This document shows positions 2,005-62,510 of a DNA stretch of 64,000 nt, in pieces. Made by a program: the position numbers and the translations under genes. The stretch lies in contig OX336345.1 of the NCBI GenBank assembly GCA_946902875.1, forward strand, positions 7,409,395 through 7,473,394, written 5' to 3'. Below the pieces are notes generated by a model. That model did no database searches and was not told the origin of the DNA. It saw only the letters and a list, made by a program, of their open reading frames with translations. This DNA is from Nematopogon swammerdamellus. Lineage: Eukaryota; Arthropoda; Insecta; Lepidoptera; Adelidae. Within the stretch, counting starts at the first letter, position 1, and each line of letters begins with the position of its first letter.

Positions 2005-2239
2005 CTCCAACCACAGATTACTTAATAGTTACTTCGTAACAGATAAATCACTCCATAGAAAATGTTCCTACCTTCGGGCTTTAATAGCCTACTGCTTCAC
2101 ATCGCCAATCGCTGCGTGCGAAAATGTACTTAAACGGTCGAGTGTAAAGTGGTTATTGCTTTGCAGCTGCGCGCAGTTGCGTCGGCGAGCGTCTATGTAT
2201 ACTTCGCGCGGCTGACGAATTCACACTGAAATAGACCGC

Positions 2240-2244
2240 CGGCG
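2240..2244. repeat. 5-bp target duplication CGGCG, left
   Basis: CGGCG lies immediately before the CACAGTG end and again at 5595-5599 after the other end. The empty site in the sister copy near 29963-29975 has the sequence once, in reverse orientation. Transib elements are known for 5-bp, CG-rich (CGNCG-like) target duplications. Confidence 0.9.
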
Positions 2245-2898
2245 CACAGTGGATCGACTCCATACAACCGATCGGACATAGGATTCTAAAAACATGAATT
2301 CATTATTTTTCAAAAACAAATGATGCCAATGTATTCTAATAAATTATTCACGTCGAAAACATTCTTACTCATTTTGCGATTAAACTTAAGTTTTGAAAGA
2401 TATTTGAAGAAAACTGATTTCATTGTATGGAAAAATATTTAAAAAAATTATTTCTCGCGATTTTCGCCTATTTTCAAAATTTCATGACAATTATAATTTT
2501 TAATGAGATATTTTCTAAATATCACCCAAACATACTTACTACGCCAACCAACGCCCTTTGGAGTTACGAGGCAGAATATGGGTTTTCCTTATGTAATGTT
2601 TTATTTTTCGATGTCCCACTGCCACAAAACGTGAACAAACACCACATACTTAGGCAGAATGTGCACCTACAGATACCTCATCACCCCCCCCCCCCCCCCC
2701 CCTCCACCCACGTACCTACAACTTGCGCAAAACGCTGTGGAGTGTGAAGTCTCGCTCTACCCATCGCACGTAACGTACCTACCGCTTCTTAGTCGCGCAG
2801 TGAGCTTTGTCACGCGCGCACGCGCATTTCGTGTTTCCGTTCGGATTGAGTTGTGTTTATTATGGCATTCCGCAGTTTTGTAACTTACTTGGACCTTT

Positions 2899-3120
2899 AT
2901 GTTGCTTTACGCAACCATGGAGATATCCGCGATTACCAACATTTGTGCAGTGTTTGCAAAATCAGATTTGAACTTGAACCTAAGTGAAAGTTTCGAGCAA
3001 CATGAGTTCGAAAAATGGTGTCGTAATTTCTGCTACCGCGTGTGTTCAAAATGGAGAGCTTCGGGTAACAGTGCAGAGAAATTCAAACGGGAGAATTCTT
3101 CGTGGCTAGCTAGAGTCTGA
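2899..3120 (+). pseudogene. 73-codon frame, possible N-terminal transposase remnant
   Basis: The frame encodes a Cys/Trp-containing basic peptide with EFEKWCRNFCYRVCSKW and, near the end, FKRENSSWLARV before a stop. The spacing of K-W, a basic helix and a terminal N-x-x-WL reminds me of the N-terminal region of Transib/RAG1-like transposases, which would suit an element built from the 5' end of an autonomous copy. This is recognition by eye and weak. The same frame exists in the other arm at 4714-4935. No catalytic residues are present, so it cannot be an active enzyme. Confidence 0.3.
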
Positions 3121-3131
3121 AACCACGAAGT

Positions 3132-3290
3132 CACAGATTACTTAATACAGATAAATCACTCCATAGAAAATGTTCCATACCTACGGCTTTAATAGCCTAC
3201 AGTTATACGTCGCCAGTCGCTGCGTGCGAAAAAGTACCTAAACGAAAGAGCGTAAAGTGATTATTGCTTTGCAGTCGCGTTGCCTTGAAG
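3132..3290 (+). repeat. Partial, diverged copy of the 7-bp-duplication element inside the arm
   Basis: 'CACAGATTACTTAATA' and the following 'cagataaatcactccatag' match the start of the element at 2012 but lack about 14 bp. The match fades after about 3270. No GGCCTG end is visible, so this copy has lost its 3' part. A mirrored copy is in the other arm, which dates this insertion before the inverted duplication. Confidence 0.6.
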
Positions 3291-3713
3291 CAAACTCGGT
3301 GACGCTAGGGCTGCTACTTTCGATAAAAATATAAATTCATTACACAATATAATATTATAATAAAGAGGAAATATGTGTGAATGTTTGTTCGTGAGCTACA
3401 GCACATATTTAAAAATGTTTTTTACTGTTAGATAGGTACCTATATTTTTTTTTGGTTTAACATATAGGCTACTTACTAGCTTTTGCCCGCGGCATCGCCC
3501 TCGTTAAAGTATATTAGAGGAAGAAATTAGTTCGGCCCGAAAATGCTTCAGGTAATCCTACCTACTATCCCTATAATGTTATTAAATTTTTATCAGTGAT
3601 AGGAATAGGTAGGGCTTCTAACTTTGAGGAACAGAGGAAAAGATTGGAGACCACCTTACTACGAAATTAAAATATTATTTTCCTTCCTGGGTACGAAAAT
3701 AATATTCATGGTG

Positions 3714-4120
3714 TAACTAAAAAGTTCAAAATGGCGGCCACTTTTTTTATTTTGACATACATACATACATACATAGCGTCACGCCTGTTTCCCGGTGGGG
3801 TAGGCAGAGACAACGGATCTCCACGTGCCACGATCCTGACACACCTCTGCCGCCTCTTCCACTCCCATAATGTTATTATGTCCCATTATTTTGACAACGG
3901 ATTCGTAATCAGAGCCCACACAGACACTCAGATATCGATTTTGAAAACAATCGGCCCGGTAACTAAAAAGATCAAAATTCCGGCCACTTTTTTTAAATTT
4001 TTACAACGGATTGGTATTCAGAGCCCACACAGACACCCAGATATCGATTTTGAAAGCAATCGGTCCAGTAACTAAAAAGTTCAAAATGGCGGCTACTTTT
4101 TTTAAATCGCGCAATTGAAA
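3714..4120. repeat. Spacer of the foldback element with about 105-bp tandem repeats
   Basis: The spacer carries two to three imperfect copies of a unit with 'actaaaaagttcaaaatggc', 'agagcccacacagacac' and 'agatatcgattttgaaa'. The first copy is interrupted at about 3757-3890 by an insertion beginning with a (CATA)n run and containing 'ggtggggtaggcagagac'. That insert is related in reverse orientation to 7390-7500. Confidence 0.65.
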
Positions 4121-5594
4121 CACCATGAATATTATTTTCGTACCCAGGAACGAAAATAATATTTTAATTTCGTCATAAGGAAGTCTCCAATCTTTTACTC
4201 TGTTCCTCGAAGTTAGAAGCCCTACCTATTCCTATCACTGATAAAAATTTAATAACATTATAGGGATAGTAGGTAGGATTACCTGAAGCATTTTCGGGCC
4301 GAACTAATTTCTTCCTCTAATATACTTTAACGAGGGCGATGCCGCGGGCAAAAGCTAGTAAGTAGCCTATATGTTAAACCAAAAAAAAATATAGGTACCT
4401 ATCTAACAGTAAAAAACATTTTTAAATATGTGCTGTAGCTCACGAACAAACATTCACACATATTTCCTCTTTATTATAATATTATATTGTGTAATGAATT
4501 TATATTTTTATCGAAAGTAGCAGCCCTAGCGTCACCGAGTTTGCTTCAAGGCAACGCGACTGCAAAGCAATAATCACTTTACGCTCTTTCGTTTAGGTAC
4601 TTTTTCGCACGCAGCGACTGGCGACGTAAAACTGTAGGCTATTAAAGCCGTAGGTATGGAACATTTTCTATGGAGTGATTTATCTGTATTAAGTAATCTG
4701 TGACTTCGTGGTTTCAGACTCTAGCTAGCCACGAAGAATTCTCCCGTTTGAATTTCTCTGCACTGTTACCCGAAGCTCTCCATTTTGAACACACGCGGTA
4801 GCAGAAATTACGACACCATTTTTCGAACTCATGTTGCTCGAAACTTTCACTTAGGTTCAAGTTCAAATCTGATTTTGCAAACACTGCACAAATGGTGGTA
4901 ATCGCGGATATCTCCATGGTTGCGTAAAGCAACATAAAGGTCCAAGTAAGTTACAAAACTGCGGAATGCCATAATAAACACAACTCAATCCGAACGGAAA
5001 CACGAAATGCGCGTGCGCGCGTGACAAAGCTCACTGCGCGACTAAGAAGCGGTAGGTACGTTACGTGCGATGGGTAGAGCGAGACTTCAACCTTCCACAG
5101 CGTTTTGCGCAAGTTTTAGGTACGTGGGTGGAGGGGAAGGGGGGGGGGGGGGGGGTGATGAGTTATCTGTAGGTGCACATTCTGCCTAAGTATGTGGTGT
5201 TTGTTCACGTTTTGTGGCAGTGCGACATCGAAAAATAAAACATTACATAAGGAAAACCCATATTCTGCCTCGGAACTCCAAAGGGCGTTGGTTGGCGTAG
5301 TAAGTATGTTTGGGTGATATTTAGAAAATATGTCATTAAAAATTATAATTGTCATTAAATTTTGAAAATAGGCGAAAATCGCGAGAAATAATTTTTTTAA
5401 ATATTTTTCCATACAATGAAATCAGTTTTCTTCAAATATCTTTCAAAACTTAAGTTTAATCGCAAAATGAGTAAGAATGTTTTCGACGTGAATAATTTAT
5501 TAGAATACATTGGCATCATTTGTTTTTGAAAAATAATGAATTCATGTTTTTAGAATCCTATGTCCGATCGGTTGTATGGAGTCGATCCACTGTG
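4121..5594 (-). repeat. Right arm of the foldback element
   Basis: Reverse complement of 2245-3713. It carries the mirror frame at 4714-4935, which differs by one residue from the left-arm frame, and a mirror of the partial element copy near 4545-4712. Confidence 0.9.
4714..4935 (-). pseudogene. Mirror copy of the 73-codon remnant frame
   Basis: It encodes the same peptide as 2899-3120 with one visible substitution (T for N at residue 14). Keeping both copies nearly identical fits a recent inverted duplication or gene conversion between arms. Confidence 0.35.
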
Positions 5595-5664
5595 CGGCGG
5601 CCCGCGCCGGGCGGTAGGTAGTTAGCGCGCGCAAGTACATAGAGTGCGTGAGGCCTGCTCCAAC

Positions 5665-8863: not shown

Positions 8864-9150
8864 CACAGAGCATCGAATACCGCGCGCGCCTCTCCTAGAG
8901 GCGAAAGTAATAATAATATTTGAAACCCAATAATTGCACGCAGTGCTGCTGGCGCTTCGTATGTGTGTGTGTGTTAGTATCGACACTACACACAAAGAGG
9001 AGCAAGTTAGGCACACGCACAAAACAAATGCACACGCACAACACACATATGTAAGTCATAGGCCACGGCCACAGGCTTCAACGGCGTTGTAGGGAAATCG
9101 CGCTCAGGGCGTCTCTAGGAGGGGGCGCGCGCGGTATTCGATGCTCTGTG
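8864..9150. mobile_element. 287-bp terminal-inverted-repeat element, 8-bp target duplication
   Basis: The ends are inverted repeats of about 27 bp perfect and about 42 bp imperfect, starting CACAGAGCATCGAATACC and ending with its complement. The flanks are perfect 8-bp duplications GGTACCAC (8856-8863 and 9151-9158). It has no coding capacity, and the interior holds a GT-rich run near 8957-8973. The CACAG start fits the CANRG rule of P-like elements, and an 8-bp duplication is usual for P and hAT; I cannot decide between them. Confidence 0.85.
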
Positions 9151-26630: not shown

Positions 26631-28753
26631 CAGATTCAGATTCAGATTCAGATTCAGATATTTATTTCGCCATAAAGAACACACAACAATAACAATATTA
26701 CATTGAGACATATGCATATTCAGTATGGTTCGTCATCATTTTTTATGATGTCCCGTTCAGTAGTGCAATCTATAAGGAAGAATCGGGTAAGAAACCTTAC
26801 AGAGCTTTTTTTAAATATAGCTTACATACTAAGTTTTCATTATGTTAAATATAACATACTATATCTAAGCAAAAAATTAAAAATACTAAGTCAAAAATAT
26901 ACTCATTAAAAAAGATAATAAAATACAAAACAAAGAACATAGGGTTCAGTCAAGTTATTAATAAAATTTGTGTTTATGCATATAAACAATTTGAATTATC
27001 AAAGTCAGCAGAATTTTTATTTACAGTATGAAAAAAATTCACTTAACTTATAAAATGGATTGTCTAAGAGAAATATTTTCAGCTGACTCTGGAACACATT
27101 GTCACTATTTATTGATTTTATTGTATCAGGAACATTTTCGTACAATTTGGGTCCAATCACGTCAGGGTCTTTTTCAGCCATCGCCGATTTATGCGCAACA
27201 GATTTTAAACGCTCTGAGTTACGTGTGTTATAATTATGACTTGCGCCATTTGACTCAAAAGAATTCATGTTTTTGCGTACATATACCACTACTTCATATA
27301 TATATAGAGAGCACACCGTTAATATACCAAAGGATTTGAAAAAGTCTCTACAAGATGTTGTTCGCGGTACACTGGCTAATACCCTTATCGCTCGTTTTTG
27401 CAGTATTAGCACTCTTTCAGCATTGGTTGAGTTACCCCACAGGATTACACCATACGACAGTAATGAGTGTACGTACGCATAGTAAGACTGTCTCAAAGCC
27501 TCCGGACTGATCAAGCGGCGTAACTCTCTTAGTGCGTAAATACCTCTAGCCATCTTGTCACATAGTTTGTCTATGTGACTTTTCCAACTTAGAGTTGGGT
27601 CAATATAGAACCCTAAAAATCGTATACATGACTGGGAGCCAATAGAGCCGGATGAATTCGAAATAGAGAGCTCACGGGGACCACAGTTTCGTCCGGAAAA
27701 TACCATATAGTTGGTCTTCGATGTATTTAGTATCAGTCCGTTCGCAGCAAACCATTCCGATATTTTTCCTACTACTATATTTAATTTTATTTCCAGTTCA
27801 TGCATGGTTTCAGCAAAGACTATTATACTAGTGTCATCGGCAAAAAGTATTAAAACACCATCTATTTTAATCAAGGCTAAGTCATTAATAAATACTAAAA
27901 ATAATGTATTACCTAATGCAGAACCCTGTGGAATACCCATTTTAATTTTACCTGGCTCGGAACTTTTTTTGTTTCCTTTTAAAGTGACCTCAGTGACCTG
28001 TCTTCGATCTGTTAAAAATGACTTTAGCAATTCATGTGGTTTATCACTTACACCATATTTTTCCAATTTGTGCAAGAGGAGGTTGTGGTCTACGACATCG
28101 AATGCTTTCGACAAGTCGCAGAATATACCTGCAACCTTGTTCCTCTTGTCTATACCTTTTATTATCTCTCCTACCAGCTTCATGCCAGCTGATTTTGTGG
28201 AGTGATCTTTACGGTATGCGTATTGGTTGGGAGAAAGAAGTTTATTATCCTCAAGATGCTTAATTACAGCGTCAGATATAACAGATTCTATGATTTTAGA
28301 TAGTGCTGGCACTAAACTTATAGGTCTATAGTTATTTGGGTCAGCTCTTTCGCCGGCTCCTTTATAAATGGGACATACACGGGTCTGTTTTAGTACATTA
28401 GGATAGGTACCCTCTTCAAACATTTGGTTAACCAATACTGATATGTATGGCGACAAACTATTTGAACATTTGGCAATCAACTCTCCCGACAACTCAAAAA
28501 TATCAAGACTGGTTTTTTTAGATAATTTGTCACGTATTAATTTTGAAATTTTTTCAGGTGTGACATAGGGTAGGCAAAAGGTTTGGTCGGCATCAAGACT
28601 GGGAATGTCCACCATTAGGGACAATGCTTTGCTTGGAGAAGCTGGATTCAGGGCTGTTAGCTTACTTCCGATATTCAGGAAGTGCATGTTCATACATTCA
28701 GGAATGTTTTCAATAGGAACATCATCTCCATCTGAGGTTATAAGCTTATGAAT
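26631..28753 (-). mobile_element. 5'-truncated LINE (jockey/CR1-like) with hexamer tail
   Basis: The minus-strand element ends 3' in about four repeats of a TCTGAA-type hexamer (26631-26659), the microsatellite tail common in this LINE group. Its 5' end at 28753 cuts into the open frame, so the endonuclease region is gone. It lies inside a SINE family 1 copy; the only possible target duplication is a short TCAG shared by both junctions. Confidence 0.8.
27017..28753 (-). CDS. LINE reverse transcriptase, N-terminally truncated
   Basis: RNA-directed DNA polymerase of a non-LTR retrotransposon, acting by target-primed reverse transcription. Counting from the first Met (28693), the motifs are NYRPISL (121-127), QYAYRKDHST (157-166), FCDLSKAFD (191-199, catalytic Asp), GIPQGSALG (253-261) and FADD (284-287, catalytic pair). 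A thumb and C-terminal region to residue 558 follow. The frame stays open upstream of that Met to the truncation point, so the Met is internal, not a start. Full-length relatives carry an APE-type endonuclease before this domain; none is present. The domain itself shows no stop or frameshift, so the insertion looks fairly recent. It cannot move alone. Clade placement (jockey/CR1 group) is by motif style only. Confidence 0.85.
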   Translation of the reverse strand: MHKLITSDGDDVPIENIPECMNMHFLNIGSKLTALNPASPSKALSLMVDIPSLDADQTFCLPYVTPEKISKLIRDKLSKKTSLDIFELSGELIAKCSNSLSPYISVLVNQMFEEGTYPNVLKQTRVCPIYKGAGERADPNNYRPISLVPALSKIIESVISDAVIKHLEDNKLLSPNQYAYRKDHSTKSAGMKLVGEIIKGIDKRNKVAGIFCDLSKAFDVVDHNLLLHKLEKYGVSDKPHELLKSFLTDRRQVTEVTLKGNKKSSEPGKIKMGIPQGSALGNTLFLVFINDLALIKIDGVLILFADDTSIIVFAETMHELEIKLNIVVGKISEWFAANGLILNTSKTNYMVFSGRNCGPRELSISNSSGSIGSQSCIRFLGFYIDPTLSWKSHIDKLCDKMARGIYALRELRRLISPEALRQSYYAYVHSLLSYGVILWGNSTNAERVLILQKRAIRVLASVPRTTSCRDFFKSFGILTVCSLYIYEVVVYVRKNMNSFESNGASHNYNTRNSERLKSVAHKSAMAEKDPDVIGPKLYENVPDTIKSINSDNVFQSQLKIFLLDNPFYKLSEFFSYCK

Positions 28754-28815
28754 CAGTGCTTCCCATCGGTCGTGCCGACTATAGTCAACTGGACGGAAAA
28801 CACAAACTATTTACA

Positions 28816-29910: not shown

Positions 29911-29917
29911 GTAGAGT

Positions 29918-30207
29918 CAGGCCTCACGCACTTTATGTACTTGCGCGCGCTAACTACCTACCGCCCGAAGGGGCCGCCGGCGGTCTTTTTCAGTAGAAAT
30001 TCGTCAGCCGCGCGAAGTATACATAGACGCTCGCCCACGCAACTGCGCGCAGCTGCAAAGCAATAACCACTTTACACTCGATCGTTAAGGTACATTTTCG
30101 CACGCAGCGATTGGCGATGTGAAACAGTAGGCTATTAAAGCCCGAAGGTAGGAACATTTTCTATGGAGTGATTTATCTGTTACGAAGTAACTATTAAGTA
30201 ATCTGTG
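29918..30207 (-). mobile_element. 290-bp DNA element, uninterrupted, 7-bp target duplication
   Basis: On the minus strand it runs from CACAGATTAC to GAGGCCTG, flanked by perfect GTAGAGT duplications (29911-29917 and 30208-30214). It is the empty-site reference for the split copy at 2012-5657. The interior has no open frame; the first part ('ctccatagaaaatgttcc') is also found inside the foldback arms. Confidence 0.85.
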
Positions 30208-30254
30208 GTAGAGTTCCCTTGTCTCTCACTAGGCGGTAGGCTTAAACAACTATC

Positions 30255-56613: not shown

Positions 56614-56924
56614 TGTGGCGGTGACTCATTGGGCACATTACACATTTCATGACAGTGCAGCAAGGTGGGGCACTTTCCCCCACGCGCCCGCGGACTTACG
56701 TGCCCTACTAGTACCACCACGTCGCCCCAGCTCCTCAGTCTTCGGCTAAGCAACTTAACGTGTATACATGCACTGCGCCTGAGCATCCGGCTCGCGCTTA
56801 CGTTGTACTCGTGGGCAATATAAAGTATTAACCTAAACTGTTGCGTTTACTTTAGCGCCCACACACCGAGACTCAAGTTAAGTGGACACGGTCATATATT
56901 ACTTATATCACTCTAACACTTACA
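56614..56924 (+). repeat. 5' LTR
   Basis: 311 bp, starting TGTGGCGG and ending CTTACA. A TATA-like AATATAAAG lies at 56817-56825, so transcription would begin shortly after. The minus-strand frame crossing it (56466-56786) is incidental and recurs in the 3' LTR. Confidence 0.93.
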
Positions 56925-57009
56925 TTGGTGACCCCGAAAAACAGTGAACACCTAAGGCGGGCGGTTACATTGGTGACCCCGAAAAACAGTGAACACCTAG
57001 GGCGGGCGG
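56920..57009 (+). repeat. Tandem 45-bp duplication carrying the primer-binding site
   Basis: The unit (56920-56964 and 56965-57009, one mismatch) contains the last five LTR bases TTACA, then TTGGTGACCCCGA and 'ggcgggcgg'. TGGTGACCCCGA is complementary to the 3' end of tRNA-Trp over 12 bases. Two primer sites therefore lie in tandem, the first correctly adjacent to the LTR. Confidence 0.85.
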
Positions 57010-57051
57010 ATAATTTTGAACACTCGGACAGTTAAAATCATAAAGTGAACT

Positions 57052-57990
57052 ATGGACGAGTATGGACGCCCACTGCCTCTGCAGTCGCGACCGGCGGCGG
57101 CGAACCCCATATCGCAACCTACAGTGCCCGTGGGGGTGCCCGCGTCTCCCGCCCAGCCAATGGCTCACGTCGACATGGGCGAGCTGGCAGCAATCTCAGT
57201 ATCAAACCGGATACCAGAATTTTGGCACCAAGAGCCAAAATTATGGTTTGTACAACTGGAGGCGGCAACAGCCGCAATGAAACTTTCGGATGAACAAAAA
57301 TGGCAAACGGTAATCGCCAAGCTTCAACTAAAGGACCTTCAACAGGTGAGCGACCTCCTCACGAACCCACCAGAGACGAAGAAATACGACACGTTGAAAG
57401 CCCGACTGATATCGACAAATGCTGACACAGAGCTACGGAGATTCCAGCGCTTGCTCAGTGAGGTCGAGTTGGGGGATCAGAAGCCATCCCAACTTCTGAG
57501 GAAAATGAGGGGATTAGCAGGGAATAAGCTGAGCGCGGAAGCGCTTAAATTCCTGTGGGCGGGCCACTTGCCCGCCACCGTGCGGACCGTGCTCGCGGTA
57601 AGCGACGAGACGGAACTTGAACAGTTGGCAAACCTGGCCGACAAGATTATGGAGAATGCCACCAAGACGGACATCGCGGCGATCGACAGACGCCCAGCAG
57701 CTTCATCAGCGTCGTCAAAACTGGAGGACACCATAGCAGAGATGTCCAGACAACTCGCGCAGCTGACAACCGACATCTGCGAGATAAAGGCCGACCGAAG
57801 CCACGTAGCACGCGAGCGTTCGAGATCGCAGACGGGCCCGAGGACATCACGAAGCGCCAGCCGATCACGCTGGCAAGAGAAGCGCGCAGCAGCTGACCCC
57901 AACTGGCTGTGCACGGCTCACTTCAAGTACAGGGGGAAGGCGCGGTCATGCAAGCAACCGTGCGCGTGGACGAAGCTGTCGGGAAACTAA
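57052..57990 (+). CDS. gag: Gag polyprotein with CHCC zinc knuckle
   Basis: Structural protein that would package the element RNA into particles. It is 312 codons from ATG at 57052, the first in-frame Met after the primer region. The middle part (about residues 45-160) has the helical FWHQEPKLWF...QLEAA style of CsRn1/Kabuki-type capsids, including KWQTVIAKL and LRKMRGLAG. A Ser/Arg-rich stretch (about 250-280) follows. The knuckle is C287-x2-H290-x9-C300-x3-C304, the CHCC variant that marks the CsRn1 clade. The stop TAA at 57988-57990 directly follows a slippery heptamer leading into pol. Undamaged. Confidence 0.9.
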   Translation: MDEYGRPLPLQSRPAAANPISQPTVPVGVPASPAQPMAHVDMGELAAISVSNRIPEFWHQEPKLWFVQLEAATAAMKLSDEQKWQTVIAKLQLKDLQQVSDLLTNPPETKKYDTLKARLISTNADTELRRFQRLLSEVELGDQKPSQLLRKMRGLAGNKLSAEALKFLWAGHLPATVRTVLAVSDETELEQLANLADKIMENATKTDIAAIDRRPAASSASSKLEDTIAEMSRQLAQLTTDICEIKADRSHVARERSRSQTGPRTSRSASRSRWQEKRAAADPNWLCTAHFKYRGKARSCKQPCAWTKLSGN

Positions 57991-60900
57991 ACAACGAGCA
58001 GCGGCCCACGTCGGCAGACCTCTGCTCTCTGCACTGCCCCAACAGCCGACTCAAGGTGCGAGACCGGGAGACAGGGTTGTCTTTCCTCGTGGACACGGGC
58101 GCAGGAGTATCCGTATTACCTGCGACGGGGAAGACACGAGTAGCAGCAGAAGAACGCGTGCTTTATGCGGCGAATGGTACGCCCATAAAGACATACGGTG
58201 ATAGGACACTAGTGTTAAATTTGGGACTTCGGCGACCGTACAGGTGGACATTCATCGTCGCCGATGTAGCAATCCCGATTTTAGGTGCGGACTTTCTTAG
58301 CTACCATAATCTCTTAGTGGACTTGAGGAGAAAAAGACTCGTGGACAACACCACTACGCTCGAAGTGTGTTGTGTGATAGACAGGAGTGAACTTAACACG
58401 TGCGTACAGACACTGAATAGTGCGGAACCACTACACGAACTATTGCGTGAGTACCCTAGGTTAAGTTCTACATCGAATATTGTCAACGAGGTCCCACTAC
58501 ATGACACTGTGCACCACATCGAGACGACTGGTCCCCCAGTGTACGCGAGAGCTAGACCTCTCCCGCCGGACAGGTATAATAAGGTCAAAAAAGATTTTGA
58601 AGACATGCTGGAACAGGGCATATGCCGTCCGTCGAAATCTCCTTGGGCCAGTCCTCTCCAGGTGGTGGTGAAAAGTAATGGAGATTTACGTTTGTGTGGG
58701 GACTACAGACGCTTGAATTTAGTGACTAAGCCAGATCGATACCCCATACCTAGATTACAAGATTTTATGTATTTAGCCTATAATAAAACTGTTTTTACGA
58801 AACTTGACATGAAACGCGCATACTATCAGATTCCGGTCCTAGAGAAAGACATCGAAAAAACTGCTATAATAACGCCATTTGGATTGTTTGAGTTTCCTAG
58901 GATGACTTTTGGCCTACGGAATAGCGGTCAGACGTTCCAGAGGTTCATGCAGATGGTGTTACACGGGCTAGATTTCGCTTTCATTTACCTTGATGATGTT
59001 TTGATAGCCTCCGAGACACAAGCGGAGCACACAGCGCAGGTTAAAATGGTACTAGAGCGACTTAACAGGTACGGAGTGCAGCTGAATGTTCAGAAATGCT
59101 CATTCAACTGTACTTCATTGGCCTACCTTGGGTATGAGGTGTCGAAGGACGGCATCCTACCTTTGCCCGAGAAAATAGAAACGATAACAAGTTACCCCCG
59201 CCCGTCCACGGTTAAGCAGTTGAGGCAGTACTTAGGTCTAATAAACTTTTACCGCGACAGTGTAAAGGACGCGGCGGACCATCAGCGACTTCTAAACGCG
59301 TATCTGGTGGGGTCCAAGAAAAAAAACGACAAAACGGTCATAGAATGGACACCCACGACGATAGAAGCGTTCGAAAGGAGCCGGGAGAGCATAAAGGAAG
59401 CTACTGCCATAGCTTTCCCGTCTCCGGACGGGGAACTATATCTAATGACAGACGCGTCCTCTACATGTGTCGGAGGAGCGCTATGCCAGGATAACAAAGG
59501 TGTAAAACAACCCTTGGGATTTTTCTCAAAGGCGCTCAGTCCAGCGCAAGAGAAATATTCCACATTCGACAGAGAGTTGTTAGGTATTTATTTATCCGTT
59601 AAACACTTCAGACGACTCATAGAAGGTCGAGATCTCACGATCCAGACAGATCACAAGCCACTAATCTATACATACCAAAACGGTGCAAGCGACAACGATA
59701 CTCCGAGACGAATCCGACAGTTGGGATTCATTTCTCAGTATTGCGCGCGTTTAGTGCACATATCGGGTGTAGACAACGCGGCGGCTGACGCAATGAGTAG
59801 AATAAATTCTATTAGCTGTCCGTCACCGCTGGACTGGACAGAACTGGCTGTCAAGCAAATCACTGATAAACAGTTACAGGAGATAGCGGTTAAAGACCCT
59901 TCCCCAGTCACGAGGTTAAACATACCTACTGGCGATTCTCAAGTAACATTGTACTGTAACATCCAAGATGGTAATGTGAGACCGTACATACCTGAGCAAT
60001 TTCGTATGCAAGTATTTAATATTGTGCACGGAATTTCTCACCCAGGGACTCGCGGTACGCGACGTCTGGTAGCACAACGGTATTATTGGCCCAGCATGAA
60101 TAGCGACGTTGGTAAGTGGACAAAATCGTGCATACAATGTCAGAAGTCTAAAGTGACCAGACACACTCATTCACCTTTAGGGACATTTGAGGAGTCTGGA
60201 CGCTTCGAGCATATACATGTAGACTTAGTCGGACCACTACCCATATCAAACGGATGCAGATATATAGTCACGATCATAGATAGGGGTACGTCATGGCCAG
60301 AAGCAGTACCAGTTTCGGACCAGTCCGCCGAAACATCAGCGAGAGTCGTATATGAGAATTGGATCACGCGTTTTGGTTGTCCAATCCGTATCACGACTGA
60401 CCAAGGTCGTAATTTCGAATCAGATCTTTTCTTTTCACTTAGTAAAATAATGGGGATGAAGAAGATACGCACGACGGCGTATAATCCAAAAGCCAATGGC
60501 AAAGTTGAGCGATTCCATAGGGGACTAAAAGCCTCACTGATGGCCCGCTGCAACACCGAAAATTGGGCTGAAGAATTGCCCACAGTACTGATGGGCTTAC
60601 GAGCCGCATTGCGTGAAAATGCGGACGTAAGCGCCGCACAGTTGGTATACGGCACGCAGTTGCGACTCCCAGGAGACTTTTTTAAACACTCAAATCTAAC
60701 AGATGAGGTAGGTGAAAGCTTCGTTGATAGGCTCCGTATGCATACCGAAGGTATAGCACCGGTGCCAGCTCGAGAAGCACGACAAAACTCCACTTTCATA
60801 CATGCGGACCTAAATAAGACTGCACATGTCTTCGTAAGAAACGACCATGTAACGAAACCGTTGATCCCTCCGTACGCGGGTCCATTCAAGGTCATAAAGC

Positions 60901-61175
60901 GATGCGAGAAGTATTTTATTGTTGAGTTACCCCAAGGAGAGAAAGCGGTCAGTATCGATCGACTCAAACCAGCTTTCATACTAAACAATAAGGGTGCACA
61001 AGACGCCACACAGCGACAGGCTGGCGTGATTCGCACTGCGCAGCAAGCGCATTCCCCGCCAGTCCCGGCAGACGGTGTAATCGACACCGACGCCGCAGCT
61101 GATGACATTACTAGATCAGTTCCGATAAGCACTCGCAGCGGCCGAGTCATCAAAACACCGGTCAGATTCTGTTAA
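57897..61175 (+). CDS. pol: Pol polyprotein: protease, reverse transcriptase, RNase H, integrase
   Basis: Expressed presumably as a Gag-Pol fusion by -1 frameshift; the frame opens after TGA at 57894 and no suitable start codon begins it. Residues counted from 57909: aspartic protease DTGA (62-65) and ILGADF (about 122-127); reverse transcriptase with LDMKRAYYQIP and YLDD (360-363); RNase H with Asp515 in TDAS and DREL; integrase zinc finger H707, H711, C741, C744; catalytic Asp772, Asp831 and Glu867 (DD35E); then GPF (991-993) in the C-terminal module. All key residues are present, with no stop or frameshift over 1,088 codons. The length is normal for the clade. There is no chromodomain or envelope. 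Confidence 0.93.
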   Translation, partial: PQLAVHGSLQVQGEGAVMQATVRVDEAVGKLNNEQRPTSADLCSLHCPNSRLKVRDRETGLSFLVDTGAGVSVLPATGKTRVAAEERVLYAANGTPIKTYGDRTLVLNLGLRRPYRWTFIVADVAIPILGADFLSYHNLLVDLRRKRLVDNTTTLEVCCVIDRSELNTCVQTLNSAEPLHELLREYPRLSSTSNIVNEVPLHDTVHHIETTGPPVYARARPLPPDRYNKVKKDFEDMLEQGICRPSKSPWASPLQVVVKSNGDLRLCGDYRRLNLVTKPDRYPIPRLQDFMYLAYNKTVFTKLDMKRAYYQIPVLEKDIEKTAIITPFGLFEFPRMTFGLRNSGQTFQRFMQMVLHGLDFAFIYLDDVLIASETQAEHTAQVKMVLERLNRYGVQLNVQKCSFNCTSLAYLGYEVSKDGILPLPEKIETITSYPRPSTVKQLRQYLGLINFYRDSVKDAADHQRLLNAYLVGSKKKNDKTVIEWTPTTIEAFERSRESIKEATAIAFPSPDGELYLMTDASSTCVGGALCQDNKGVKQPLGFFSKALSPAQEKYSTFDRELLGIYLSVKHFRRLIEGRDLTIQTDHKPLIYTYQNGASDNDTPRRIRQLGFISQYCARLVHISGVDNAAADAMSRINSISCPSPLDWTELAVKQITDKQLQEIAVKDPSPVTRLNIPTGDSQVTLYCNIQDGNVRPYIPEQFRMQVFNIVHGISHPGTRGTRRLVAQRYYWPSMNSDVGKWTKSCIQCQKSKVTRHTHSPLGTFEESGRFEHIHVDLVGPLPISNGCRYIVTIIDRGTSWPEAVPVSDQSAETSARVVYENWITRFGCPIRITTDQGRNFESDLFFSLSKIMGMKKIRTTAYNPKANGKVERFHRGLKASLMARCNTENWAEELPTVLMGLRAALRENADVSAAQLVYGTQLRLPGDFFKHSNLTDEVGESFVDRLRMHTEGIAPVPAREARQNSTFIHADLNKTAHVFVRNDHVTKPLIPPYAGPFKVIKRCEKYFIVELPQGEKAVSIDRLKPAFILNNKGAQDATQRQAGVIRTAQQAHSPPVPADGVIDTDAAADDITRSVPISTRSGRVIKTPVRFC
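57981..57987 (+). promoter_or_regulatory. GGGAAAC slippery site for -1 frameshift
   Basis: The gag codons GGA AAC preceded by G fit X-XXY-YYZ exactly and sit just before the gag stop. Pol is in the -1 frame, closed upstream by TGA at 57894-57896. An inverted repeat GTCGGC/GCCGAC (58010-58015, 58045-58050) downstream could form part of a stimulatory structure, though it lies about 22 nt away. Confidence 0.8.
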
Positions 61176-62183
61176 CTTTTTTAAATTAATGTATTTACTT
61201 CTACTGATAAGAAATTTCAAATAAGGAGTATCGGAACCTGATATTATGCAGAGTAATTTTAACAAGCGTTTGTACAATTTTAATGTTAATATTAGCTGTA
61301 TTGTAAATGTGTAAATTTAAAATGTAAACATAGGTAGTTAAGGCAACTTGTAAAACATACTTTGCTAAACATTTTTACGTAATTCTCAAGACGATTAAGC
61401 TTAATATTCTGTCCCGATTTAGGAAAGGCAGTGCTGTATTTTGTACAAAAATGAAACACATGAGATTAATGTAACAATTGTAACGATAAATTCTGAAATG
61501 TATCTGGTATTTATAAGAAATAGGGCGAGGGCAGGCCACATAACATTGACCAAGTGACATACCAAAAAGGGTATACTCGGTGGCCCCGTTAAAGAAATGT
61601 GTTTCAGTAGGGTATTAACGTATGCAAAATGACATCCTCGGCATGATGTGCAAAAATTTGTAGGTCACCTCAGCTTTGGCCGAGAAACATACAAAAAAGT
61701 GCATACTCTGTGACCCGGTTAAATAAATGTACTCGTAGTTTAGTAAGTTATCAATGCATGCAAAAACAATTCTCGATTTTGTTCGAAATGTTTCGCACCT
61801 GGTCAGCAAAAGTGAAATATAGGTCACCTCGGAATTGGCCGACTGACACGCAAAGAAATTGTATACTAAGTAACACTGTTAAGAAAATTAAATTAGTAGG
61901 TTACTGACGTATGTAAAAATAATTGTAAACATTCTGTGCAATTTGTCATTAAATGCATAAGCGAGTAGGTACATAGCTGCAGGCGAGCGATGCACTCGTT
62001 ACGACGAAATCTGACTCAGCAAGCGTTTCGCGCGCGCATATCAATAAAAGCCACAGTAAACCACAGTAGTGTGTTCGATTGTTAATATCGACTTGACCAT
62101 AGTACATATTTAGTACAGTAAAACACTTCATTGTAATTGAAATTTTTGTTGAAGGAAATTGTATAGTTTTTCTTTAAGTTTTT
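61176..62183 (+). other. Element 3' non-coding region with three degenerate repeats
   Basis: About 1 kb without frames. Three diverged units of 130-160 bp start at about 61532, 61661 and 61824. They share 'ggtcacctc' plus 'ttggccga', then 'tatactc.gtgaccc.gttaa', 'taggttaacgtatgcaaaa'-like segments. Function unknown. Confidence 0.65.
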
Positions 62184-62199
62184 TTTGGGGATGGAGTGA
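62184..62199 (+). other. Polypurine tract
   Basis: 'ggggatggagtga' preceded by a T-run lies directly before TGTGGCGG of the 3' LTR. It is the expected primer for plus-strand synthesis. Confidence 0.8.
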
Positions 62200-62510
62200 T
62201 GTGGCGGTGACTCATTGGGCACATTACACATTTCATGACAGTGCAGCAAGGTGGGGCACTTTCCCCCACGCGCCCGCGGACTTACGTGCCCTACTAGTAC
62301 CACCACGTCGCCCCAGCTCCTCAGTCTTCGGCTAAGCAACTTAACGTGTATACATGCACTGCGCCTGAGCATCCGGCTCGCGCTTACGTTGTACTCGTGG
62401 GCAATATAAAGTATTAACCTAAACTGTTGCGTTTACTTTAGCGCCCACACACCGAGACTCAAGTTAAGTGGACACGGTCATATATTACTTATATCACTCT
62501 AACACTTACA
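62200..62510 (+). repeat. 3' LTR
   Basis: 311 bp, no difference from the 5' LTR found by eye. Followed by AACC, the second copy of the target duplication, and then host LINE sequence 'tttgcaagaaag'. Confidence 0.93.

Follow-up and report, generated by a model that had tools for sequence, protein, structure and literature searches.

In this work, we analyzed a 64,000-nucleotide stretch of DNA from the moth Nematopogon swammerdamellus (contig OX336345.1; hereafter, the window) and found that the 3,350-bp element at positions 2245-5594 is almost certainly a non-autonomous foldback transposon that belongs to Transib, a superfamily of cut-and-paste elements. We place it in this superfamily because of its 5-bp CGNCG target duplications, its heptamer-like CAC ends, and the similarity of these ends to those of transposase-bearing elements at four loci of the same genome (L065, L066, L068, and L071). 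In addition, we newly found remnants of a Transib transposase in both arms, covering about 80 N-terminal residues in frame-shifted codons. A non-autonomous Transib had been proposed in an initial annotation of this DNA, and the CGNCG duplications, the Transib-like ends, and the transposase remnants in the arms support that proposal.

Anatomy and insertion site of the element

The element consists of two long inverted arms around a short loop and lies within a copy of a repeat whose sister copy is empty. The features are as follows, with the strand given where one applies.

2010..2244 (+): left portion of the repeat that received the insertion, 96.2% to 29975-30209
2240..2244: left target-site duplication CGGCG
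2245..5594: whole foldback element assigned to Transib, 3,350 bp
2245..3714 (+): left arm, 1,470 bp, of which the initial 238 bp match the right arm perfectly
2245..2251 (+): terminal heptamer CACAGTG, left end
2245..2600 (+): arm part alignable to Transib end DNA, 61.6% over 367 columns with L068 and, as far as 2566, 61.8% over 330 columns with L071
2274..2282 (+): second terminal block GGACATAGG, left end, also in the Transib elements L065, L068, L069, and L070
2853..2945 (+): Transib transposase N-terminus fragment, left arm, 71% over 31 aa to L066
2959..3108 (+): N-terminus continuation in another frame, left arm, 42% over 50 aa to L066
3138..3274 (+): 137-bp fragment in the left arm, 86-87% to the repeat family serving as insertion target
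3715..4119: 405-bp loop containing a tandem pair of 109-bp units at 3888-3996 and 3997-4105
4120..5594 (-): right arm, 1,475 bp, 98.5% to the left arm (BLAST)
4555..4696 (-): right-arm counterpart of the target-repeat-family fragment (86%)
4726..4875 (-): N-terminus continuation, right arm
4889..4981 (-): transposase N-terminus fragment, right arm, same as the left-arm fragment
5557..5565 (-): second terminal block GGACATAGG, right end
5588..5594 (-): terminal heptamer CACAGTG, right end
5595..5599: right target-site duplication CGGCG
5595..5660 (+): right portion of the repeat that received the insertion, 92.5% to 29914-29979
29914..30209 (-): uninterrupted sister copy of this repeat, an empty site with a single CGGCG

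The inverted ends are perfect for 238 bp (first letters CACAGTGG), and CACAGTGGATCGACTCC is present at both ends of the element (2245 and 5594). Aligned globally, the two arms differ by 15 mismatches and seven gap columns in 1,476 columns. Just three of these mismatches are transitions, and seven are grouped at 3625-3683, beside the loop. With 2,945 of its 3,350 bp in the arms, the element is structurally a foldback; it is longer than the limit of about 800 bp in one published definition of miniature inverted-repeat transposable elements (MITEs; PMC9033116) and by size falls outside that class. An Rfam scan of the window gave no match, four frames of the element had none above the cut-off in Pfam, and the arm frame 2418-2744 had none either as a protein or in viral contigs.

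The exact inverted ends, the CGGCG on both sides, and the sister locus without the insertion are as the initial annotation had described. The sister locus is 95.3% identical to the joined flanks of the element over 297 bp and contains a single CGGCG; this empty site indicates that the element is an insertion accompanied by a 5-bp duplication. When the window was scanned for pairs of CAC ends (14-bp ends, up to three mismatches, 80-6000 bp apart), the element was the sole pair with a 5-bp direct repeat. Perfect 14-bp end pairs numbered two with a 4-bp direct repeat, both falling within the arms of the element, and one each with direct repeats of 5, 6, and 8 bp, the last being 8864-9150. No such pair was present in five first-order Markov randomisations of the window. 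CGNCG is described as the preferred Transib target in moth-to-baculovirus insertions (PMC4735498). Furthermore, the foldback element and the transposase-bearing L066 are inserted at the same base of one repeat family, with left flanks that are 94.6% identical over 242 bp and right flanks that are 95.4% identical over 65 bp, and this shared insertion base points to strong target choice.

The L066 protein matches both arms at residues 2-32 (71%) and 37-85 (42%), with an E-value of about 2e-15; the two segments lie in two reading frames, which implies a frameshift between them. At the DNA level, the arm is alignable from its tip to L068 (arm positions 1-356, 62%), L071 (1-322, 62%), and, weakly, L066 (1-198, 60%), and farther inward it is 65-66% identical to the N-terminal coding parts of L066 and L071. 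By these alignments, the outer arm is a Transib 5′ end of the kind represented by L066, L071, and L068. The arms hold frame-shifted N-terminal fragments only and no intact DDE transposase, so the element can be at most a non-autonomous member of the superfamily. C-terminal pieces of HzTransib (PDB 6pqn) found no match by tblastn in the copies of the family at an E-value of 1e-3, and their best match in the window was at 0.079.

Copies of the family and their movement

Using the first 201 bp of the element as the query against the host genome (a 699-Mb assembly of 39 contigs), we found 40 scored matches among 72 candidates; every one of the 40 begins at base 1 and is 99-100% identical to the query. 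Two of these matches are the element itself, and the remaining 38 fall in 26 regions, all of which were retrieved. Both ends are present in 23 of these regions, spaced 842-7,858 bp apart, and the 5-bp flanks are equal in 21 of the 23 two-ended copies (the exceptions being L016 and L021). Because the flanks of L021-L024, which lie on four contigs, are 99.6-100% alike over 250 bp on each side, these four copies were counted as one insertion. Their lengths differ, ranging from 842 to 2,176 bp; probably one insertion was amplified inside a larger repeat and has changed in length since. With L021-L024 merged and the element in the window added, there are 21 independent sites. Equal flanks of 5 bp were found at 20 of them and equal flanks of 6 bp at none, consistent with the CG-rich 5-bp duplication that had been expected at further copies. 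The left flanks read CGCCG at 10 sites, CGGCG at seven, CGACG at two, and CCTCG and CACCG at one each, such that 19 of the 21 fit CGNCG.

Terminal arms are present in all 24 copies examined, including the element in the window, with lengths of 349-1,812 bp and identities of 95.5-99.7%. The foldback with 1.47-kb arms, which the initial annotation had called unusual, is thus confirmed in structure but is no lone oddity. Copy L032 is nearly a full palindrome (arms of 1,812 and 1,807 bp in 3,701 bp), and in others, such as L015, L020, and L025, the arms are well below half of the element length. The transposase N-terminus block occurs in both arms of 19 of the 24 copies (in seven of these, one side is more than 20 bp shorter) and in one arm of two copies; it is cut to 78 bp in two more and absent from one. 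The 7.9-kb copy L015, whose CGGCG flanks still match, contains a 1,122-aa reverse transcriptase frame (L015:691-4056). This frame was rejected as a transposase, since its domain is RVT_1; in our reading, it belongs to a retroelement that nested in this copy or was captured by it.

Arm divergence was compared in 10 of the 24 copies, with 991 alignment columns from the outermost 1,000 bp of each arm. The left arm of the element in the window differs from the right arm of L022 by 0.40%, and its right arm from the left arm of L022 by 0.30%, whereas its left and right arms are 1.21% apart (arm-to-arm divergence is 1.1-1.2% in each of these two copies). This crosswise identity indicates that the palindrome was inherited: the foldback transposes as a whole unit, and the difference between the arms predates the last transposition in these copies. 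The arms of L011, L012, and L018, when paired between the copies (L012 being reversed), are 0-0.4% apart, and their flanks do not match one another, which places them at different sites. Among the 10 copies, divergence between the arms of one element is 1.1-4.2% (mean 1.74%), and the mean between elements is 1.97%. The element is a real transposon and was apparently mobile until recently.

Transib transposases, their ends, and alternative explanations

A C-terminal piece of HzTransib gave 150 scored matches among 977 candidates in the host genome, and a 751-codon open frame was present in 65 of the 150 (counted by eye). This very abundant type is exemplified by L065:285-4948 (contig C1), which has the heptamer CACAGTG; the elements at L058 and L061-L064 are 98.6-99.5% identical to it over 2.6-3.1 kb, and the L065 type looks recently active. 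The 751-aa protein of L065 matches HzTransib with an E-value of 2e-168, and the 720-aa protein of L066 (L066:1499-5341) does so with 5e-155. Three catalytic acids are reported for HzTransib (PMC6941560), and according to our own numbering map these align to D, D, and E in L066.

Ten of the transposase loci (L065-L074) were examined at length. Paired CAC ends with CGNCG on both sides were found in nine, and in the tenth, L072, paired CAC ends were not found. Equal 5-bp flanks were a criterion in searching or ranking these loci, and CGNCG composition was no criterion. Transposase frames of 697-751 codons are open in L065, L066, L067, and L070; in L068 and L074 the frames are broken or short, and these two are relics. 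When aligned with gaps over 40 bp, the two ends of these elements share with the foldback end 35 and 33 positions in L068, 31 and 30 in L071, 30 and 29 in L066, and 30 and 30 in L065, but such raw counts are inflated, as L074 reaches 27 and one end of L067 reaches 26. Compared with 1,000 shuffles, the alignment scores of L065, L066, and L068 were unreached at both ends; for L069, one end was unreached and the other was reached twice. In a direct comparison, the score of L071 is similar to that of L066. The GGACATAGG block lies 20-22 bp inward of the heptamer in the foldback element, L065, L068, L069, and L070, with variants in other elements. The exact CACAGTG heptamer also occurs in L065, L068, and one end each of L069 and L073, and the heptamers of the other relatives are CACACTG, CACGGTG, or CACATTG. 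Transposase elements with ends similar to those of the foldback, as anticipated in the initial annotation, are therefore present in the same genome. Outside this genome, the end pattern had no matches in either IMG/VR or GTDB contigs, and the C-terminal pieces of HzTransib found no confirmed relative in viral and bacterial contigs; against proteins, they found 95 relatives among 121 candidates, which came without usable DNA context.

Under the Transib assignment, each arm opens as a Transib 5′ end, with terminal repeat, leader, and about 80 frameshifted N-terminal codons of the transposase, followed by other repeat DNA, and the short loop joins the two arms head to head. Acting in trans, a Transib transposase, presumably from the L066/L071/L068 clade or the abundant L065 type, would bind the CACAGTG...GGACATAGG ends, cut out the whole palindrome, and insert it at CGNCG, leaving a 5-bp duplication. 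For the HzTransib transposase, it is established that cleavage forms a hairpin in the flanking DNA and leaves the element blunt-ended (PMC6941560).

Several observations weigh against this assignment. As equal flanks were preselected at the transposase loci, the duplication length there is not independent evidence. The ends of L067 score like their own shuffles despite 26 alignable positions out of 40. A search with the L066 protein (62 scored matches among 2,604 candidates: three of L066 type at 98-100%, including L066 itself, two at 62%, and 57 at 49-50%) found no transposase element with an identical end or a near-identical leader. Among the 21 independent sites of the foldback family, the flanks of L016 are unequal and one duplication reads CCTCG. 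Equal flanks are also seen at 2 bp in 20 of the 21 sites and at 8 bp in three; the 2-bp equality follows from CGNCG starting and finishing with CG, and the empty site settles the length of the duplication as 5 bp. The neighboring element at 8864-9150 agrees with the foldback at 11 of the 13 outermost end bases and yet has an 8-bp direct repeat.

CAC ends are found in several transposon superfamilies, and this neighbor, with the initial end bases that it has in common with the foldback, could be taken to suggest that the foldback belongs to another of them (CACTA/CMC, Chapaev, or hAT/P) and resembles Transib by convergence. We regard this as extremely improbable: the transposase N-terminus in the arms already contradicts it, as do the 5-bp CGNCG duplications and the DNA likeness to Transib ends. 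Long palindromes are also a known sequencing artefact, and a false inverted copy could have been assembled from chimeric reads. The 15 arm differences plus gaps, the target duplication, the empty site, and a structure common to all 24 copies examined contradict such an origin, to which we give practically no credence. The variation in arm length and loop among copies (arms of 349-1,812 bp) would fit a palindrome that arose at the locus by template switching, rather than one that arrived as a ready-made foldback. For the copy in the window, this is contradicted by arms that are far closer crosswise to those of L022 (0.3-0.4%) than to each other within either element (1.1-1.2%), making local formation very improbable.

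Known systems, a possible silencing role, and neighboring elements

The heptamer of the element is exactly the consensus heptamer given for V(D)J recombination signals, CACAGTG (PMC8289069), and RAG1 is regarded as a descendant of a Transib transposase (PMC4411706). The identity with the V(D)J heptamer, to which the initial annotation had drawn attention, stands, but the likeness stops at the heptamer: no nonamer is found at either signal spacing (four of nine matches at 12 and two of nine at 23), and the ends of the element are symmetric. In one end of L065, a 10-bp spacer is followed by GCAAAAACC, which has eight of nine nonamer bases; chance may explain this isolated instance.

Among known elements, Hztransib of Helicoverpa zea, an element of 3518 bp, resembles the foldback in its 5-bp duplication and its long terminal inverted repeats (PMC1852546), and the transposases of the host genome are its homologues. 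It differs in that it codes for a transposase, whereas the foldback is mostly palindrome with N-terminal fragments, and in its reported GCTCG as compared with mostly CGNCG here. The Transib MITEs of insects are likewise non-autonomous and have 5-bp duplications (PMC9033116; PMC5199201). They are reported as 75-564 bp long with terminal repeats of 13-57 bp in two Helicoverpa species (PMC9033116) and, across 98 insects, as averaging about 482 bp (PMC5199201), and according to both surveys few superfamilies are more poorly represented in insects than Transib. The maximum in the Helicoverpa survey was 800 bp (PMC9033116), so longer elements could not appear in it. By comparison, the foldback copies are 842-7,858 bp long with arms of 349-1,812 bp.

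Like the foldback element, FB and Tetris (listed in PMC9659126) of Drosophila have very long inverted repeats, internal tandem repeats, and a short loop. To our knowledge, neither of these two foldback elements is Transib-derived, whereas here the ends, the target, and the coding fragments in the arms are those of Transib. No Transib foldback was found among the titles and abstract openings listed from the accessible literature, a search that had subscription papers and Repbase outside its scope. A single genome holds dozens of Transib genes with full-length frames together with a foldback family that was recently mobile and whose ends and targets match. It may serve as a test bed for the end features that a RAG-like transposase needs (the heptamer, GGACATAGG, and the CGNCG flank) and for the regulation of such a transposase by transposon-derived inverted repeats.

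In principle, the mirror-image transposase start could give rise to hairpin RNA against relatives. It is compatible with the Transib assignment, although unlikely, that the family has the added role of a mobile silencer similar to Mu killer of maize. Read-through RNA would then include sense and antisense versions of the leader and the transposase N-terminus, and small RNAs derived from it would repress Transibs able to mobilise the family. The terminal repeat, the leader, and the N-terminal codons are indeed inverted in the arms, with the block in both arms of most copies, and Mu killer is described as having the same design, an inverted duplication in which either half holds TIRA together with 1.298 kb of mudrA, the transposase gene (PMC3440606). 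However, among the transposase elements L065-L069, the longest stretch that matches the arms exactly is one of 15 nt in L066, which is too short for perfect targeting by small interfering RNAs, and no close parent was found among the 62 scored matches to the L066 protein. The paper on Mu killer favors internal antisense transcripts over a large hairpin (PMC3440606). Mu killer is also one maize locus that silences MuDR, whereas here the inverted duplication is a mobile animal family for which silencing is putative. We consider it quite doubtful that the family is a mobile hairpin repressor, one that would spread by Transib transposition and make double-stranded RNA against the very transposase that mobilises it. 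If true, this would be a self-limiting regulator of the Mu killer kind within the RAG-related superfamily, alongside several Transib lineages with open frames.

Other mobile elements are present in the window. The element at 8864-9150 is 287 bp long, has perfect 27-bp ends (CACAGAGCATCGAATACC...) and the 8-bp direct repeat GGTACCAC, and is one that we take to be possibly of hAT or P type. At 56614-62499, a long terminal repeat retroelement has identical 300-bp stretches (56614-56913 and 62200-62499) and a 1,092-aa frame with reverse transcriptase, RNase H, and integrase domains, and it looks recent. A 597-aa reverse transcriptase frame of a long interspersed nuclear element (LINE) lies at 27017-28810 on the minus strand. 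Among the 120 matches listed out of 1,155, which suggest an insect and probably a lepidopteran host, its best named match is from the moth Phthorimaea operculella, and lower ones are from a termite, a butterfly, Plutella, and beetles.

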